This document shows, piece after piece, positions 1 to 34,270 of a DNA stretch of 51,383 nt. Each line of letters starts with the position of its first letter. Positions within the stretch are counted from its first letter, which is position 1. The notes beneath the pieces were generated by a model, which saw nothing but the letters and a program-made list of their open reading frames with translations, did not search any database and was not told where the DNA came from. The DNA lies in assembly GCA_017519205.1 (NCBI GenBank), contig JAFWSW010000102.1, positions 1 through 51,383 of the forward strand, read 5' to 3'. Made by a program: the position numbers and the translations under genes. The stretch comes from Clostridiales bacterium. Lineage in GTDB: Bacteria; Bacillota; Clostridia; Saccharofermentanales; Saccharofermentanaceae.

Positions 1-572
1 AGATTCTTTCCGTCTTTCCATTGCCCATATCGATGTCGATGATCTCATATCCATTCTCTTTAGCTGACTTATCGATATCAAATGGTGTAGGGACCGGAGT
101 AGGTGTATTTGTCGGAACCGCCGTGCTTGTAGGGGCAGGTGTTGCCGTTGGCTTTGGTGGTGTAGTTGGAACAGGTGTTGGAGTAGCCGTCTGTGTTGGT
201 GTAGGCGTCTCTGTCGCTTTTGGTGCCGAAGTCGGTTTTGGCGCTTCCGCTGTCGTGGTCGCAACCGGTTCTGGTGCGGTCTCAGAAGAAGTCGTCACTT
301 CTCCAGTCGTCTCTGAGGTCTCTTGAGATGTCGTAGATTCGACTGTTTCTGTATCGGATTGAACCGTGTCGTCTGGCTTCGTAATATTTCCTTCTATCTG
401 GGATTCACCTGCATCTTGTGCTGGAATCGTTTCATCGATCGGCTCTGCTGATTCTGATGTAATCTCGTTATCGTTTTTCCCGATTTCTGTATCACTCTGA
501 TTCTTGCATCCAACGATTCCGAGGATCACAGCCAGGATCAGAACAGTAGCCATAAGCTTTCTGTGTCTCATA
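1..572 (-). CDS. Lipoprotein with Pro/Thr-rich linker (3' end outside window)
   Basis: About 190 codons are visible; the gene runs off the left edge, so its C-terminal domain is unseen. The N-terminus (MRHRKLMATVLILAVILG) is a basic, then hydrophobic signal peptide followed by a lipobox IVGC, so the mature protein should be lipidated on Cys22 and anchored outside the membrane. Next comes an acidic Ser/Thr/Glu-rich stretch, then a long TPTPTQTATP-type linker (roughly residues 110-160), a typical flexible spacer of clostridial surface proteins. The last visible residues (DIDKSAKENGYEIIDIDMG) seem to begin a folded domain. The start is set by AGGAGG placed 8 bases upstream. The function cannot be assigned without the missing part. 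Confidence 0.85.
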
Positions 573-26423: not shown

Positions 26424-27893
26424 TTAAAGAATATACTTCTCGACGATCCTTGCGACGCCGTCTTCTTCGTTTGTTGCCGTGACCTGATCCGCGACTTTCT
26501 TCACTTCCTCGATGGCATTTCCCATGGCGATGCCCAGACCGATATTGCTTATGCTTTCCACATCATCGTGATCGTCTCCGAAATACATCGCTTCCGATTT
26601 ATCGATGCCTTCCTTTTCCAGAACTAATTGTACGCCATTCCACTTCTTTGCAGAAGTACTCATGATCTGGTAAAGCCACCCTTCCGCCACGGTGAAGTAG
26701 GCCGATTCCTCCAATCCTTCTTTTCGGATCGCCTCTTTGATTCGATCCGGAATAGAAGACGTATCACAGAGCCCCTCCTGCGGGACCTTTACTGTGTCCA
26801 GCTGATGCTCTTTTCCGGCAAGGAGGATCTTGTAGAGATCGCATGTATCCAGAAGCGAGACGAGGTCACTGACCGCCGGCGTATCCCATTCCGGGATCTC
26901 GATATTTCCGAAGATACCTTCGCTGGTCTCGAGCACCACGATCAGGTCATCGTGTCTGACGATTTTCGACAGCAAGGACCGCGCATTTTCTTTGGAAAAA
27001 CCGTTACTTATGATACGGTCGCCCAGTTTGATCCGCGCACCGTTTAAAGTAATCAGGGCATCGGCCTCGGTGAACTCCTTGTACATCGCGGAGATTGCCC
27101 GCTCGGGCCTGGCCGATGCGACCGCCCAGATCCCGCCGTTTTTACGGAAAGCACGGATCGCTTCCATCGTCCGGTCCGATATCGACTTATCTTTCCGCAG
27201 CACGGTTCCGTCCAGATCAGTAAAGACCGCGCGCATCTTCCGCGAATCTTTCTTCAGGTCCGCCAGCGCGTCGCCTCGCTCAAAATCCAGCCGGACAAGT
27301 GCTTTTCCATTCGGAAGATCCTTCACATCTTTCAGAATCAGGCTGTACCCGATTTCTTTCATCGCCTCCGTCAATGCGGTTTCCTCCATCTGATGATGTA
27401 CAGTATCGAGCCCATCAAAGGCATGGAGATAAGGCGAATCGGAGACCCAGTTTTTCGTGTCGGTATTGATCTGGATCACACAGGACACATACTGCGGAGA
27501 GACCTTTTTCACCGCCTTTTGAAAAGCACTGTACCCGATATATTCGATGAGAAGATTGGCGATGAGAAGTTCCGTGCAGGGAAGCTTCTCCGCCTCTTCG
27601 ATCAGATCGATCCTCTCACACTGAAGAGTATCTCCGAGCTCACTATATCTTTCGGAAACCGCCTTCAGATATTCCTCGTTGATGTCGATACCAAACACCT
27701 TCGAAAACTTCTCCGGATCAACATGCTCCAGTCCGTTTCCGCCGGCCACACCGAGGACCATGGCAGTCTTCACGGGATACTCGCCGAACTGTTTTTTCAT
27801 TATGGCATTCATCGCCTGAAGCTGCTTGACGGAGTCCAGGCTCATGTGGCTTTCGTAATCTTGAAGTGAGATTTCTTCCCAGGGATTATTCAT
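26424..27893 (-). CDS. SAM methyltransferase-HAD phosphatase fusion
   Basis: A 489-residue protein. Residues ~1-210 form a class I methyltransferase (MVLGVAGGNGLEHVDP as motif I, FGIDINEEYL). Residues ~222-489 form a Cof-type HAD phosphatase: FTDLDGTVLRKDKSIS with the nucleophile Asp, VASARPERAI, and GDDHDDVESISNIGLGIAMG with the metal Asps. Both catalytic cores look intact. The HAD half alone is a typical YidA/Cof sugar-phosphate phosphatase length. The ATG at 27893 has GAGGTG upstream; a GTG three codons earlier overlaps that site and is less likely. Confidence 0.87.
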   Translation of the reverse strand: MNNPWEEISLQDYESHMSLDSVKQLQAMNAIMKKQFGEYPVKTAMVLGVAGGNGLEHVDPEKFSKVFGIDINEEYLKAVSERYSELGDTLQCERIDLIEEAEKLPCTELLIANLLIEYIGYSAFQKAVKKVSPQYVSCVIQINTDTKNWVSDSPYLHAFDGLDTVHHQMEETALTEAMKEIGYSLILKDVKDLPNGKALVRLDFERGDALADLKKDSRKMRAVFTDLDGTVLRKDKSISDRTMEAIRAFRKNGGIWAVASARPERAISAMYKEFTEADALITLNGARIKLGDRIISNGFSKENARSLLSKIVRHDDLIVVLETSEGIFGNIEIPEWDTPAVSDLVSLLDTCDLYKILLAGKEHQLDTVKVPQEGLCDTSSIPDRIKEAIRKEGLEESAYFTVAEGWLYQIMSTSAKKWNGVQLVLEKEGIDKSEAMYFGDDHDDVESISNIGLGIAMGNAIEEVKKVADQVTATNEEDGVARIVEKYIL

Positions 27894-27908
27894 GCGCTGC
27901 ACCTCATT

Positions 27909-30315: not shown

Positions 30316-30969
30316 ATGTTTTACAGCAGATATCCGTCTTCACTTCTTAATATTCTTCGGGATTATCAGTTAGATAACAGTCCTGTTTTCCAAAGGGCTG
30401 TAAGAAATACCGTTGACCACTCGATGGACGACCTCGTCTCGAAGCCGTCTCTTCCGACGATCAAGGATCCGTCCTACATCCAGCTGGTCCGTATCGCCCT
30501 CTGCTACTACATCGCCAAGGCCGACCAGGTCAAGCCCGATGAGCAGGAGAAGATCGATCAGATGTGTGAGGAACTTCTCAACGACCCGGAAATGAATCCG
30601 GATTACCGGTATGAGCTCCGCATGATCCTCGCAGATAAGGGAACAAGCTTCAATAACGTAAGAAGATACTTGAACCGTATCGAGGCCAAGGAGCTCGAGA
30701 ACTTCTGGAAGGATGTCATGGCGATGGCTGAGATGTCCGGCGAGATCACGGATAATGAGCGAAAAGCACTGCTCGTGTACGAGAGCTATGTCAAAGAACG
30801 TATGGACATGGAGAAGATGCCGGATGTACGACCCGTGACCGGAAAGCCCAGAGTCGTCTCCCTGACATGTAAGCGCTGCAGCGCCGTCCTCGAGGTCAAT
30901 GCGAATCTCACGACCGCCTTCTGCCCGTACTGCGGCACGAAGCACATCATCTATCAGGAAAATAAGTGA
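30316..30969 (+). CDS. TerB-like protein with C-terminal zinc ribbon
   Basis: A 217-residue protein. Residues ~45-165 are helical and resemble the TerB/tellurite-resistance-like domain (IALCYYIAKADQVKPDEQEK, with acidic residues that may bind metal). Residues ~185-215 form a zinc ribbon, CKRC then CPYC, 24 residues apart. Function unknown; TerB domains occur in stress and envelope-associated proteins. GGAG lies before the ATG. An AAAAGCAC motif occurs both 27 bases upstream (30289) and inside (30762), the latter using CGA for arginine. Confidence 0.72.
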   Translation: MFYSRYPSSLLNILRDYQLDNSPVFQRAVRNTVDHSMDDLVSKPSLPTIKDPSYIQLVRIALCYYIAKADQVKPDEQEKIDQMCEELLNDPEMNPDYRYELRMILADKGTSFNNVRRYLNRIEAKELENFWKDVMAMAEMSGEITDNERKALLVYESYVKERMDMEKMPDVRPVTGKPRVVSLTCKRCSAVLEVNANLTTAFCPYCGTKHIIYQENK

Positions 30970-30979
30970 TCGACCTTGG

Positions 30980-31008
30980 TTGACACCTCTTCTTTTCGGG
31001 AGTATCAT
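30980..31008 (+). promoter_or_regulatory. Promoter of the Met-rich micropeptide gene
   Basis: TTGACA (30980-30985), exactly 17 bases, TATCAT (31003-31008): a consensus -35 and a five-of-six -10, starting 11 bases after the TerB-like stop and 29 bases before the micropeptide ATG. Confidence 0.8.
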
Positions 31009-31036
31009 CAACTAAACTTCAAAGGAGGCTGTATTC

Positions 31037-31123
31037 ATGCGTTTTAATATGATGCTCATGATGGATATGTACATGATGATGTGTGACATAAAGTCATATG
31101 GCATTGAACGCGCGCAAAAATAA
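31037..31123 (+). CDS. Met-rich micropeptide, 28 residues
   Basis: A short open frame with its own consensus promoter, AAAGGAGG 8 bases before the ATG, and a strong terminator 31 bases after the TAA. The product has 28 residues, nine of them methionine and one cysteine, clustered in the first sixteen (MRFNMMLMMDMYMMMC), then a charged tail ending GIERAQK. The Met-rich amphipathic start could sit at a membrane or bind copper(I) by thioethers, but no family is recognised. The complete expression signals around so short a frame make it more credible than a chance ORF. Alternatively the transcript is a small RNA. Confidence 0.65.
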   Translation: MRFNMMLMMDMYMMMCDIKSYGIERAQK

Positions 31124-31153
31124 CAGTCATTTAAAACGTAAAGCGAAACATTC

Positions 31154-31190
31154 AAGGCCATTTATCCAGTGATAGATGGCCTTTTTGTTT
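31154..31190 (+). terminator. Rho-independent terminator of the micropeptide unit
   Basis: AAGGCCATTTATC (31154-31166) pairs with GATAGATGGCCTT (31171-31183) over 13 positions with one G-U, loop CAGT, then TTTTT. It separates the micropeptide transcript from the GNAT gene that follows. Confidence 0.92.
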
Positions 31191-31210
31191 CAGTAAAAAA
31201 GGAGGACACC

Positions 31211-31678
31211 ATGGTTATCAGAAGATTTAAGGAAGAACAGGCAAAAGAAGTATCGGATCTCATCAGAACGACGATCCGGATCTCAAATACGAAGGACTAT
31301 CCTCTGGAACTCATGGAACAGCTGATCGAGTCGGAAACACCGGAGCATGTGATCGAGCGGGCAAGCTGGACGCACTTCTATGTGGCTCAGGACGAAGGCC
31401 GTATCGTCGGCTGCGGCGCCATCGGTCCCTACTGGGGAAAAGAAGACGAGAGCAGCCTCTTTACGATCTTCGTGCTTCCCGAGTATCAGGGAAAAGGCGT
31501 CGGAAGATCGATCATCGAAACACTCGAAACCGACATCTTCTTCCTTCGCGCCAGAAGGATCGAGATCCCGGCCTCGATCACGGGGGTACCTTTCTACCTC
31601 AAAATGGGATACCATTATAAGGACGGAATAACCACACCGGATGACGAACATCTGATCAGACTGGAAAAGACCCGATGA
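31211..31678 (+). CDS. GNAT-family acetyltransferase
   Basis: A 155-residue GNAT: VIRRFKEEQAKEVSDLIRTT at the start, LFTIFVLPEYQGKGVGRSII with the Q-G-K-G-V-G acetyl-CoA loop, and VPFYLKMGYHY near the end. Substrate unknown. GGAGGACACC precedes the ATG at 31211, which is preferred over an upstream start that would lie inside the terminator. Its stop overlaps the region of the next gene's ribosome binding site, so the two are co-transcribed. Confidence 0.9.
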   Translation: MVIRRFKEEQAKEVSDLIRTTIRISNTKDYPLELMEQLIESETPEHVIERASWTHFYVAQDEGRIVGCGAIGPYWGKEDESSLFTIFVLPEYQGKGVGRSIIETLETDIFFLRARRIEIPASITGVPFYLKMGYHYKDGITTPDDEHLIRLEKTR

Positions 31679-31695: not shown

Positions 31696-32394
31696 ATGAG
31701 CATCTTCAGGAAAAAATCAACTCTGTACCTGGTTGCCGGCGTGCTTATTTTCTTCTGCATTTTCCTGCAGGTAAGATACATGCTTTTCGCAACTGAACCG
31801 GAAGGAAAAATACTGACGGAAAAGTTCATTCATCAGATCTGTATCCGTTACGGGTTTAAGTCATTAAGATATGCTTTCTTCGGCGCCACGCTCCTGTGGT
31901 GTGCAGGTCTGGCTTTCTTTCATTTTCGGGACTATCTTCCGGACAAGATCAGCGGGGCCTACTATGCATGCTTTATTCTGGCTGTCCCGGTATTGATCAT
32001 TTTCTCGGTGATCGCAGCTCCGAACCTCTCTGCAAGACCCCATCTGGAAGAAGCGACCGTTCTTAACAAAGACACCCATTTCGTAAACAATTCGAATACG
32101 AAAAGCTTGAAAAATCACCTCCTCTTATCCAATGGAAAGGATATAAAAGTTTCATCCTCGGAATATGCTATGGTGAAGGAAGGAGACATTCTCCTTCTCA
32201 TCATGAACGATGATCATGTCGTTACATTCTATCGTTCCGACGAGTATATACCGGCAGAGGATGTGGAAGTCATAAGAAACGATGATCTGGAGGCGATCAA
32301 AAAAGCCGAAGAAGATTATTTGCCGATCAACGGCGAGACCCTCCCTTCGGAATATTCCGGATCGGATGTTACCTGGTGGACAGCAGTTACATAA
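31696..32394 (+). CDS. Hypothetical membrane protein
   Basis: A 232-residue protein, not recognised. Three hydrophobic segments are visible in the first half (~10-30 LYLVAGVLIFFCIFLQVRYM; ~56-76; ~88-110), then a soluble, acidic C-terminal domain (~115-232) with DGDILLLIM-type strands (KEGDILLLIMNDDHVVTFY) ending in VTWWTAVT. AAGGAGGAT precedes the ATG. It lies 17 bases after the GNAT stop and 15 bases before the PAS gene, so the three form an operon. Confidence 0.75.
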   Translation: MSIFRKKSTLYLVAGVLIFFCIFLQVRYMLFATEPEGKILTEKFIHQICIRYGFKSLRYAFFGATLLWCAGLAFFHFRDYLPDKISGAYYACFILAVPVLIIFSVIAAPNLSARPHLEEATVLNKDTHFVNNSNTKSLKNHLLLSNGKDIKVSSSEYAMVKEGDILLLIMNDDHVVTFYRSDEYIPAEDVEVIRNDDLEAIKKAEEDYLPINGETLPSEYSGSDVTWWTAVT

Positions 32395-32409: not shown

Positions 32410-32784
32410 ATGGCTGACTTAAATGAGATCTACAAGAGTGTACTGGATGCCGACAGAGCGGCAGTTGTGATCTGTGACCTTGAGCATACGATCGTATATA
32501 TGAATCAGGCGGCGGTCGAGCGCTATGAAAAATGGGGCGGAAAAGCTCTTCTCGGAAAGAGCCTGATGAACTGCCACAACAAGAAATCCGGAGAGATGAT
32601 CGAGAAAGTGATCGCCTGGTTCTCCTCTTCCAAAGACAACAATCTCGTGTACACATTCTATAACGAAAAGGAAAACAAGGACGTGTACATGGTCGCACTT
32701 AGAAACGATGCCGGAGACCTGATCGGATACTACGAAAAACACGAGTACCGTAACCGCGAAACCATGAAGATGTATGACATCTGA
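32410..32784 (+). CDS. Single-domain PAS protein
   Basis: A 124-residue PAS-fold protein: VVICDLEHTIVYMNQAAVER, GKSLMNCHNKKSGEMIEKVI, then NKDVYMVALRNDAGDLIGYY. The NCHNxKS motif is typical of small clostridial PAS proteins and of the PAS half of DUF438 proteins, which bind haem or another cofactor; ligand unknown. No output domain is attached, so it must act through a partner. GGAGA precedes the ATG. Confidence 0.8.
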   Translation: MADLNEIYKSVLDADRAAVVICDLEHTIVYMNQAAVERYEKWGGKALLGKSLMNCHNKKSGEMIEKVIAWFSSSKDNNLVYTFYNEKENKDVYMVALRNDAGDLIGYYEKHEYRNRETMKMYDI

Positions 32785-32989: not shown

Positions 32990-34270
32990 ATGAATAAAAA
33001 AAACGAATTACGGGATTTCTATATACTCTGGTCCACCCAGAGCCTGTCACAGCTGGGAAGTGCCATAACGGCGTTCGCCCTGACACTGTGGCTTTACGAT
33101 GAAACGGGATCCACGCTTGGTACTGCCGCACTTCAGATATGCACCTATGCACCTTATGTGCTGATGAGCATCTTCGCCGGCGCACTCACGGATAAGTTCA
33201 ATAAGAAAAAGACCATGCTGGTCTGTGACCTTCTGGCCGCACTCACCACGGTTACTGTTTTCGTGCTTTATAAGACGGACACACTTTGTATCTGGCATCT
33301 GTATGCGGTCAATGCCGTCTCGGGTCTCATGAACACCGTGCAGCAGCCCGCCTCGGAAGTCGCGGATACTATGCTGGTCCCGAAGAAATACTATCAGAAA
33401 ACAAGCAGTCTTCAGTCGCTGACAAGATCTCTGATCTCGATCGGAAATCCGATCATCGCCACAGCCATCTACGAACTTGCCGGACTTGACGCGGCCGTCG
33501 CCGTGGACCTTTTTACGTTCGCGATCGCTTTTATCGCACTGGCAATGTTTATCCGTATTCCGGAGATCCCGGACAAGGAAGATACGGAAGGAAGTGTATT
33601 AAAGCTTGCTAAAGAAGGCCTTTCTTATCTGAAAGGAACACCCATGATCCTTTACGTGATCCTCTTCATGGCAGGAGTCAACTTTATTGCATCTGCTTTT
33701 GACGCAGCGATCATCGGATTGATCCTTCCGAATCCACGAGGTGGAAAATTCGTGCTGAGTATCGTCACCGCATTCTCGGGGATCGCGATGGTCGTCGGAA
33801 GCCTGCTGGCTGCAAACATGAAGAAGCCACGGGACCGCGTAAGAGTGATCTACCTGTCGATGCTCTTCTCTCTTTCCACCGAGAATTTCCTTCTCGCGTT
33901 CTCGAGAAGTCCGATCGTCTGGTGCTTCGCGCAGTTCATCGGATGGGTATTCGTACCGGTCATGGCGGCCAATCAGAATGTCACCATGAAGAGCACGATC
34001 CCTCCGAAACTTCAGGGACGTGTATATGCATGCAGAAACACACTTCAGTTTTTTACTATCCCGCTCGGACTTCTCTTCGGCGGATTCATGGTCGATGAAG
34101 TATGCGAGCCTCTAATGCGAAGAAGTAACGGGACGATGCAGGTGCTTTTCGGAACGGGAAAAGGATCCGGCGCCGCGCTCGTGATGTTCATCTTAGGCGT
34201 CATGGGAACGGTAATGTGTCTCATCTTCGGACACAAATTAAAGAAGTATCACTACACTGACGAATCGTAA
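32990..34270 (+). CDS. MFS efflux transporter, Mef-like group
   Basis: A 426-residue MFS protein with about twelve membrane segments. The order ILWSTQSLSQLGSAITAFAL, LTDKFNKKKTMLVCD (the MFS loop 2-3 motif) and VQQPASEVADTMLVP, LQSLTRSLISIGNPI follows the MFS_3 drug-exporter branch that includes Mef macrolide pumps and EntS; PPKLQGRVYACRNTL is the second-half counterpart. The substrate is unknown. Its ribosome binding site lies in a hairpin behind a short leader peptide, the kind of control known for antibiotic efflux and rRNA methylase genes. A bidirectional terminator follows. Confidence 0.85.
   Translation: MNKKNELRDFYILWSTQSLSQLGSAITAFALTLWLYDETGSTLGTAALQICTYAPYVLMSIFAGALTDKFNKKKTMLVCDLLAALTTVTVFVLYKTDTLCIWHLYAVNAVSGLMNTVQQPASEVADTMLVPKKYYQKTSSLQSLTRSLISIGNPIIATAIYELAGLDAAVAVDLFTFAIAFIALAMFIRIPEIPDKEDTEGSVLKLAKEGLSYLKGTPMILYVILFMAGVNFIASAFDAAIIGLILPNPRGGKFVLSIVTAFSGIAMVVGSLLAANMKKPRDRVRVIYLSMLFSLSTENFLLAFSRSPIVWCFAQFIGWVFVPVMAANQNVTMKSTIPPKLQGRVYACRNTLQFFTIPLGLLFGGFMVDEVCEPLMRRSNGTMQVLFGTGKGSGAALVMFILGVMGTVMCLIFGHKLKKYHYTDES

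Follow-up and report, generated by a model that had tools for sequence, protein, structure and literature searches.

A methionine-rich short reading frame as a putative leader-peptide attenuator of a GNAT acetyltransferase operon in Saccharofermentanaceae

Organization of the leader and the downstream operon

The window, i.e., the whole stretch of 51,383 nucleotides analyzed here, contains a compact leader unit on its plus strand, directly preceded by the stop of an upstream gene (30316-30969). A sigma-70-type promoter at 30980..31008, composed of TTGACA (30980-30985), a 17-nt spacer, and TATCAT (31003-31008), matches 11 of the 12 consensus bases. It is followed by the Shine-Dalgarno (SD) sequence AAAGGAGG (31021..31028), a short ORF (31037..31123), and an intrinsic terminator hairpin of 13 pairs with a loop of 4 and a subsequent T-run (31154..31183). 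The ORF starts with the ATG at 31037, comprises 28 codons (MRFNMMLMMDMYMMMCDIKSYGIERAQK), and ends with the stop at 31121-31123. Its product has nine methionines, including the start, and one cysteine; the Met/Cys-rich part covers codons 2-16 and every Met lies within residues 1-15. All of these elements, and the clustering of methionines early in the frame, had been described in the original prediction and were found in place.

The same prediction regarded the unit as self-contained, which proved wrong. A gene encoding a 155-aa acetyltransferase of the GNAT family (31211..31678, plus strand; Pfam Acetyltransf_7/1/10 and a GNAT fold in the PDB comparison) begins 27 nt beyond the terminator with its own SD at 31200-31205. 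A probable second operon gene (31696..32394, plus strand), a membrane protein as judged by eye, starts 17 nt past the GNAT stop; the Pfam scan from 31675 assigned no family to it. Because of these two closely spaced genes and the separate SD of the GNAT gene, we consider the unit as the leader of a GNAT operon and not as a free-standing gene. Further downstream on the same strand are located a small PAS-domain protein (32410-32784), which possibly belongs to the same operon, and an MFS transporter (32990-34270) resembling the Mef macrolide efflux proteins with an E-value of 2.6e-31, far under the curated cut-off. Elsewhere in the window, the 492-aa ORF at 26424-27902 on the minus strand resembles, as judged by eye, a fusion of a methyltransferase and a HAD-type hydrolase.

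The promoter ranks first among five promoter-like sites between 30000 and 32500. The numbers of such sites in the region (5 versus 3.8 +/- 1.9 in shuffles) and of terminator-like sites (2 versus 1.9) are near the shuffle level, and therefore the case against a chance arrangement rests on conservation. The transcript at 31014-31192 folds better than its shuffles (z = -4.2).

Distribution and conservation of the leader

A blastn search with the region returned matches in four of 59 related genomes, and an exact pattern was found in 10 of 115 genomes of the family. In a genome collection, this pattern retrieved nine records, eight of them contigs already found and one (L022) new; the records are named as Saccharofermentans sp., Ruminococcaceae, Oscillospiraceae, and Clostridiales or Clostridia bacterium, and some of the names mention yak rumen, sheep duodenum, or red deer. 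With a covariance model, the complete element was detected in 16 of the 188 genomes from the order (E < 1e-16). The promoter, SD, short frame, and terminator are kept in these 16 genomes at near-constant spacing, which bears out the original view that so complete a set of signals is unlikely by chance. In 15 of 16 members, start and stop are 81 or 84 nt apart, and the distance from start to terminator end is 139-152 nt in all 16. Fifteen of the 16 leaders have a TTGAC box, recognized by eye, at comparable spacing from the ORF, L011 having no clear TTGACA, and the SD is kept in the alignment of members. The exception in ORF length is L034 (about 16-187, minus strand), located at a contig edge. 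It is a natural variant with a premature stop after codon 20 and an altered segment 2 (see below), and both of its alternative pairings are predicted to be weaker.

Eleven further genomes of the order, nine in the family and two in other families, gave weak covariance-model matches only. Inspection of the weak matches in all eleven, together with a second match in G067, revealed two apparently decayed copies (L040 and L043) and one leader-like unit of a different kind (L042); the remaining matches were chance similarities or other terminators. In L043 the leader is lost and part of the terminator persists ahead of the same GNAT gene, and L040 is a degenerate leader copy. The L042 unit (genome G137, contig C45, minus strand, about 1501-1653) consists of a 25-codon ORF with eight Thr codons (VNRLTVTTHTVTSTKFTKLGTFVLC), a terminator, and then a gene that appears by eye to be methyltransferase-like; it has no full-length relative in the 188 genomes.

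No leader was identified outside the family in a class sample of 391 genomes (all six weak-match genomes outside the family were read), and no convincing one in a phylum sample of 398 genomes (six of 17 weak-match genomes were read); the weak matches inspected outside the family represented other terminators or chance similarity. Both searches used strict filters with 9-10 candidates scored per genome, and hence remote relatives may be missed. The plasmid and phage collections contained no match to the leader, and no viral contig had the strict pattern; two viral contigs with a looser pattern were judged to be chance matches since they have neither leader nor terminator anatomy. Of the genomes searched, all those with the putative attenuator belong to a single family of gut/rumen Clostridia.

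Alternative RNA pairings and covariation

The stretch AUGGC-A-UUG within the ORF is complementary to CAA-G-GCCAU at the terminator left arm except for a single, constant A-G mismatch. Based on pairing and covariation, we define segment 2 (AUGGC-A-UUGAA, 31098..31108) as the 5' strand of a predicted antiterminator and segment 3 (UUCAA-G-GCCAU, 31151..31161) as its 3' strand. The latter overlaps the terminator left arm, and the terminator itself is formed by segments 3 and 4. In the alignment of 16 sequences, 93.2% of the 176 antiterminator cells are paired, three of the 11 pairs are changed on both sides, and the flanking pairs show compensatory changes between A-U, G-C, and U-A. The covariation score of 0.121 compares with 0.054 +/- 0.011 in shuffles, none of 500 being as high; kinship of the sequences can inflate such scores, and it is retained in the slid controls, in which 17-49% of the antiterminator cells are paired. 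Column 98 is unpaired in eight of 16 rows, and L034 breaks two pairs.

Next to segment 2, the hairpin P2 (UGUGAC-AUAAA-GUCAUA, 31082..31098) is kept paired in every one of the 16 members, partly through compensatory changes. For P2 and the terminator together, 100% of 304 cells are paired and eight cells have double changes; the slid controls for the antiterminator, P2, and terminator range from 17 to 55%. P2 and the antiterminator have only one column in common and so are not strictly exclusive. The sequences are related, falling into two main groups plus L004, L008, and L039, and the member counts are thus not independent.

The minimum-energy fold suggests that, when no ribosome is present, segment 1 (GAUGC, 31051..31055) may pair with GCAUU of segment 2. 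This pairing is weak in the studied leader and strong in the L005 group. At most one in 100 shuffles gave as good a 1:2 duplex for L005, L010, L011, L007, L030, L031, L032, and L004, and the duplex in the group of the studied leader (L014, L002, L022, L012, and L006) was no better than shuffles, with a fraction of 0.20-0.32 as good; the fractions for L039, L008, and L034 were 0.65, 0.96, and 1.0, respectively. When partners were swapped between members, own partners were not favored (-8.3 kcal/mol for own versus -9.8 kcal/mol for swapped).

Modeling of ribosome positions on the leader

We modeled the effect of a ribosome by masking the transcript to a point 15 nt downstream of the first nucleotide in the P-site codon and computing the pairing up to the end of the terminator left arm. 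The computed antiterminator probability without a ribosome is 0.00-0.04 in all 16 members. With a ribosome at codons 11-15 it rises to about 1.0 in 15 of 16, L034 staying at or below 0.5, and it falls to 0 in all 16 once the ribosome has reached codon 18. The antiterminator is thus predicted to form with the ribosome at about codons 2-16, hereafter the stall window. The stall window opens by codon 2-3 in 13 members and at about codon 8-9 in L008 and L004, where it is narrower (about codons 9-16) and coincides with the Cys codons of these two leaders.

The off state of the naked RNA was compared with shuffles of the upstream part in nine of the 16 members. Nucleotide shuffles had a mean naked-RNA antiterminator probability of 0.33-0.75, and a probability as low as the real one was reached by 0-31% of nucleotide shuffles and 0-13% of codon shuffles. 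Given this spread, the real leaders are better in the off state than typical shuffles but are not singly significant in every member.

Leader peptides and their methionine and cysteine codons

The leader ORF has 27 or 28 codons in 15 of 16 members. The N-terminal half of the peptides is variable, as in MRTNMMPMMYMYTIM..., MRKDTMSMMYMFMFM..., MFNYMTTMHMHELT..., MLNKMTTMCMCRTT..., and MRNNVTTKFACCECA..., and no conserved stall motif was seen in it. The C-terminal half is near-constant (YDxxSYGIxxA), although L039 deviates from it in places. The coding frame of 15 leaders is free of stops from codon 2 to about codon 15, whereas the two alternative frames contain 28 and 33 stops. In-frame ATG triplets outnumber those of the other frames (55 versus 15 and 0). 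For the two groups of leaders, pN/pS was 0.57 and 0.61 in the N-terminal part; the corresponding C-terminal values were 1.08 and 0.61. For these few sequences, this points to weak purifying selection on the peptide at most. The test named in the original prediction, RNA conservation against frame conservation, had a mixed outcome since both are kept, as expected for a leader-peptide attenuator.

Within the stall-window codons of 14 distinct intact peptides, 59 of 190 residues (31%) are Met or Cys (52 Met and 7 Cys), compared with seven of 182 in the rest of the same peptides and a background of 4.4% in eight ORFs of the window. The number of Met in these codons ranges from eight to zero across members. 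L004 has zero Met and three Cys there, and L008 has two of each. The enrichment of Met and Cys where stalling would switch the downstream gene on leads us to favor a sulfur amino-acid signal.

The GNAT genes and the gain and loss of leaders

In all 15 leaders with available downstream sequence, out of 16 in total, the first gene past the leader encodes a GNAT and lies 19-39 nt after the terminator. Twelve of these genes are orthologues (GNAT1), one is a different type (GNAT2, in L007), and two are others (L004 and L008). The eleven other leader-borne GNAT1 proteins are 72-83% identical to the studied one, and the GNATs of L004 and L008 have 29-35% local identity to it. The L007 GNAT2 is 87.5% identical to the second gene of the L031 operon, suggesting that GNAT1 was probably lost in L007. 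In the Pfam check, the studied protein, six first genes, and one second gene all scored as GNAT above the cut-offs; the other first genes were assigned by their identity to the studied protein.

GNAT1 occurs in 55 of 188 genomes, and most copies have no leader. Among 14 inspected GNAT1 loci, the studied locus has the leader, two (L074 and L083) have promoter or terminator remnants before the same GNAT gene, and eleven have none (for L075 the inspected stretch was shifted). One of the leaderless loci, L073, encodes a GNAT1 94% identical to the studied protein, yet has no leader. On a tree of 29 GNAT1 sequences, the presence of the leader requires five changes, at least three of them forced by well-supported branches. 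These comparisons show that, as far as sequences can tell, the leader can be gained or lost ahead of related genes. In some relatives, the GNAT1 domain forms the last part of a long fusion protein (12 frames over 850 aa; L093, L094, and L099 were read), and the long proteins in these three loci are presumably GGDEF/EAL-like signaling proteins.

The function of the GNAT enzymes was approached by structure and family models. A PDB sequence search with the studied GNAT gave no match at 1e-4. Its AlphaFold model has a mean pLDDT of 81.8, and among the 50 fold matches listed are generic GNATs, including RimI-like enzymes, phosphinothricin and arsinothricin acetyltransferases, YncA, and PaiA. Since these matches are only 10-22% identical, no substrate name can be drawn from the fold. 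None of the GNATs considered here reaches the curated cut-off of the NCBIfam resistance models. To our knowledge, GNAT1 has no link to Met or Cys.

Proposed mechanism and alternative explanations

Taken together, the anatomy, conservation, covariation, constant GNAT partner, and coincidence of the predicted stall window with the Met/Cys stretch suggest that the short Met-rich frame encodes the leader peptide of a ribosome-mediated transcription attenuator of the GNAT operon (probability about 0.85, based on sequence comparison and modeling). We propose that the promoter drives a leader RNA encoding the 28-residue peptide and ending in the terminator ahead of the GNAT gene. Without translation of the leader, its ORF RNA would fold on itself, the terminator would form, and the operon would be off; likewise, a fast ribosome would cover segment 2 near the stop codon, leaving the terminator to form. 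A ribosome that is slow or stalled in the first 15 or so codons would leave segment 2 free to pair with the terminator left arm, resulting in read-through into the GNAT gene. We have nearly the same high confidence in this explanation as a whole. Most likely, then, the Met-rich frame is the sensor part of an on/off RNA switch rather than a working micropeptide, and we infer that the switch operates in cells.

The identity of the signal is a more balanced question. A shortage of charged Met-tRNA or Cys-tRNA has in our estimate an even chance of being the signal; the trigger might be, for example, starvation for sulfur amino acids or a poison resembling methionine that might be acetylated by the GNAT. 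A broader and more tentative proposal is a movable attenuator that senses a shortage of charged Met-tRNA, with Cys codons substituting in some lineages, and switches on whichever GNAT follows, thus serving detoxifying or modifying enzymes and not amino-acid synthesis. In Firmicutes, control of methionine genes is usually attributed to riboswitches and T-boxes. Two SAM riboswitches and eight T-boxes were matched elsewhere in the studied genome (G000; contigs C67, C144, and eight others), so the organism probably has ordinary Met control as well. The same Rfam models do not match at the leader, and a SAM riboswitch or T-box at this position was rejected.

The same attenuator could instead respond to a ribosome-targeting antibiotic or to generally slow translation, with the GNAT as a resistance-type enzyme, a serious contender that we rate at roughly one-third. 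Many GNATs modify drugs, the leader is found on several unrelated GNATs, the model requires merely a stall anywhere in codons 2-16, and the downstream MFS gene is Mef-like, though far under the curated cut-off. Moreover, Firmicutes leader peptides of this kind sense antibiotics (PMC4191407, PMC6851288). However, an antibiotic signal leaves the 31% Met+Cys of the stall window unexplained, and it sits poorly with the missing stall motif, the failure of every GNAT here to exceed a resistance-family cut-off, and the lack of matches in plasmid and phage collections.

The explanations in which the peptide or the RNA acts without ribosome-mediated attenuation appear much less probable. The original prediction was right in seeing a real unit with a coding short ORF, but the functions it offered, a membrane micropeptide, a copper ligand, or a stand-alone small RNA, are not supported. 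A micropeptide acting in trans in the membrane or in metal binding would fit the stop-free frame in 15 leaders and the N-terminal pN/pS of about 0.6; it is very improbable given the Met count varying from eight to zero in the stall-window codons, the C-terminal third of the ORF held by RNA pairing, and the constant link to GNAT genes. The Met pattern expected of a metal ligand is not conserved, L004 having three Cys and no Met in these codons. An independent small RNA of ~165 nt whose ORF is incidental is equally improbable: its structured RNA is indeed framed by a promoter and a terminator, but the in-frame coding signal, the antiterminator, and the GNAT gene within 19-39 nt in 15 of 15 cases speak against it, and the RNA matched no Rfam family at the gathering score (a relaxed scan gave a sub-threshold plant miRNA match only). 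Only slightly less remote is a riboswitch or protein-bound leader with an accidental ORF, in favor of which is the conserved hairpin P2 adjoining the antiterminator strand. Yet P2 is small and lies inside the coding frame, conservation extends to the SD, the start, and the length and stop position of the frame, and the window has no Rfam match at the gathering score.

If the Met/Cys codons are indeed the sensor, the attenuator would tie the supply of sulfur amino acids, or poisons resembling methionine, to GNAT enzymes, and would offer a handle on what GNATs of uncharacterized substrate do.

Comparison with known attenuation systems

Cysteine-rich leader ORFs precede the cys operons of mycobacteria (PMC1262725; compare Canestrari 2020). 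Like the leader described here, these are short ORFs in which several codons for a sulfur amino acid follow one another ahead of the regulated gene; they differ in using Cys and not Met, in belonging to a cysteine synthesis operon and to a different phylum, and in that no terminator was found there (PMC1262725). The same study reports, for Actinobacteria, Cys-rich leaders without terminators before cys operons and no conserved RNA structure before methionine operons, and names the S-box as methionine gene control (PMC1262725). Histidine leader peptides have been reported in Firmicutes, in a paper whose text contains neither "GNAT" nor "acetyltransferase" (PMC2965389). Among open papers, we found no methionine-rich leader-peptide attenuator in print.

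The tlrB (yxjB) gene of B. subtilis is likewise a modifying-enzyme gene preceded by a leader peptide and a terminator, but its peptide has nine residues with a macrolide stall motif, and the stalled ribosome itself blocks the terminator (PMC6851288). A closer parallel is bmrB/bmrCD of B. subtilis, whose attenuation was shown experimentally: it combines a short translated ORF, a terminator, an antiterminator, and an anti-antiterminator, and a slowed ribosome leads to read-through (PMC4191407). In contrast to our leader, bmrB has 53 codons with the terminator inside the ORF, it controls an ABC transporter, and the signal shown is antibiotics (PMC4191407). The attenuators of the trp/his type, amino-acid attenuators that have been modeled with the same logic, share the concentration of regulatory-type codons where stalling frees segment 2 (PMC1183508). 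Their regulatory codons correspond to the amino acid that the operon synthesizes, whereas here the regulated gene is a GNAT without a known role in Met or Cys synthesis. By analogy, the working principle of the proposed attenuator is that of bmrB/bmrCD and the trp/his attenuators, and what would set it apart is the Met/Cys-rich sensor, the GNAT target, and the repeated gain and loss before related genes.
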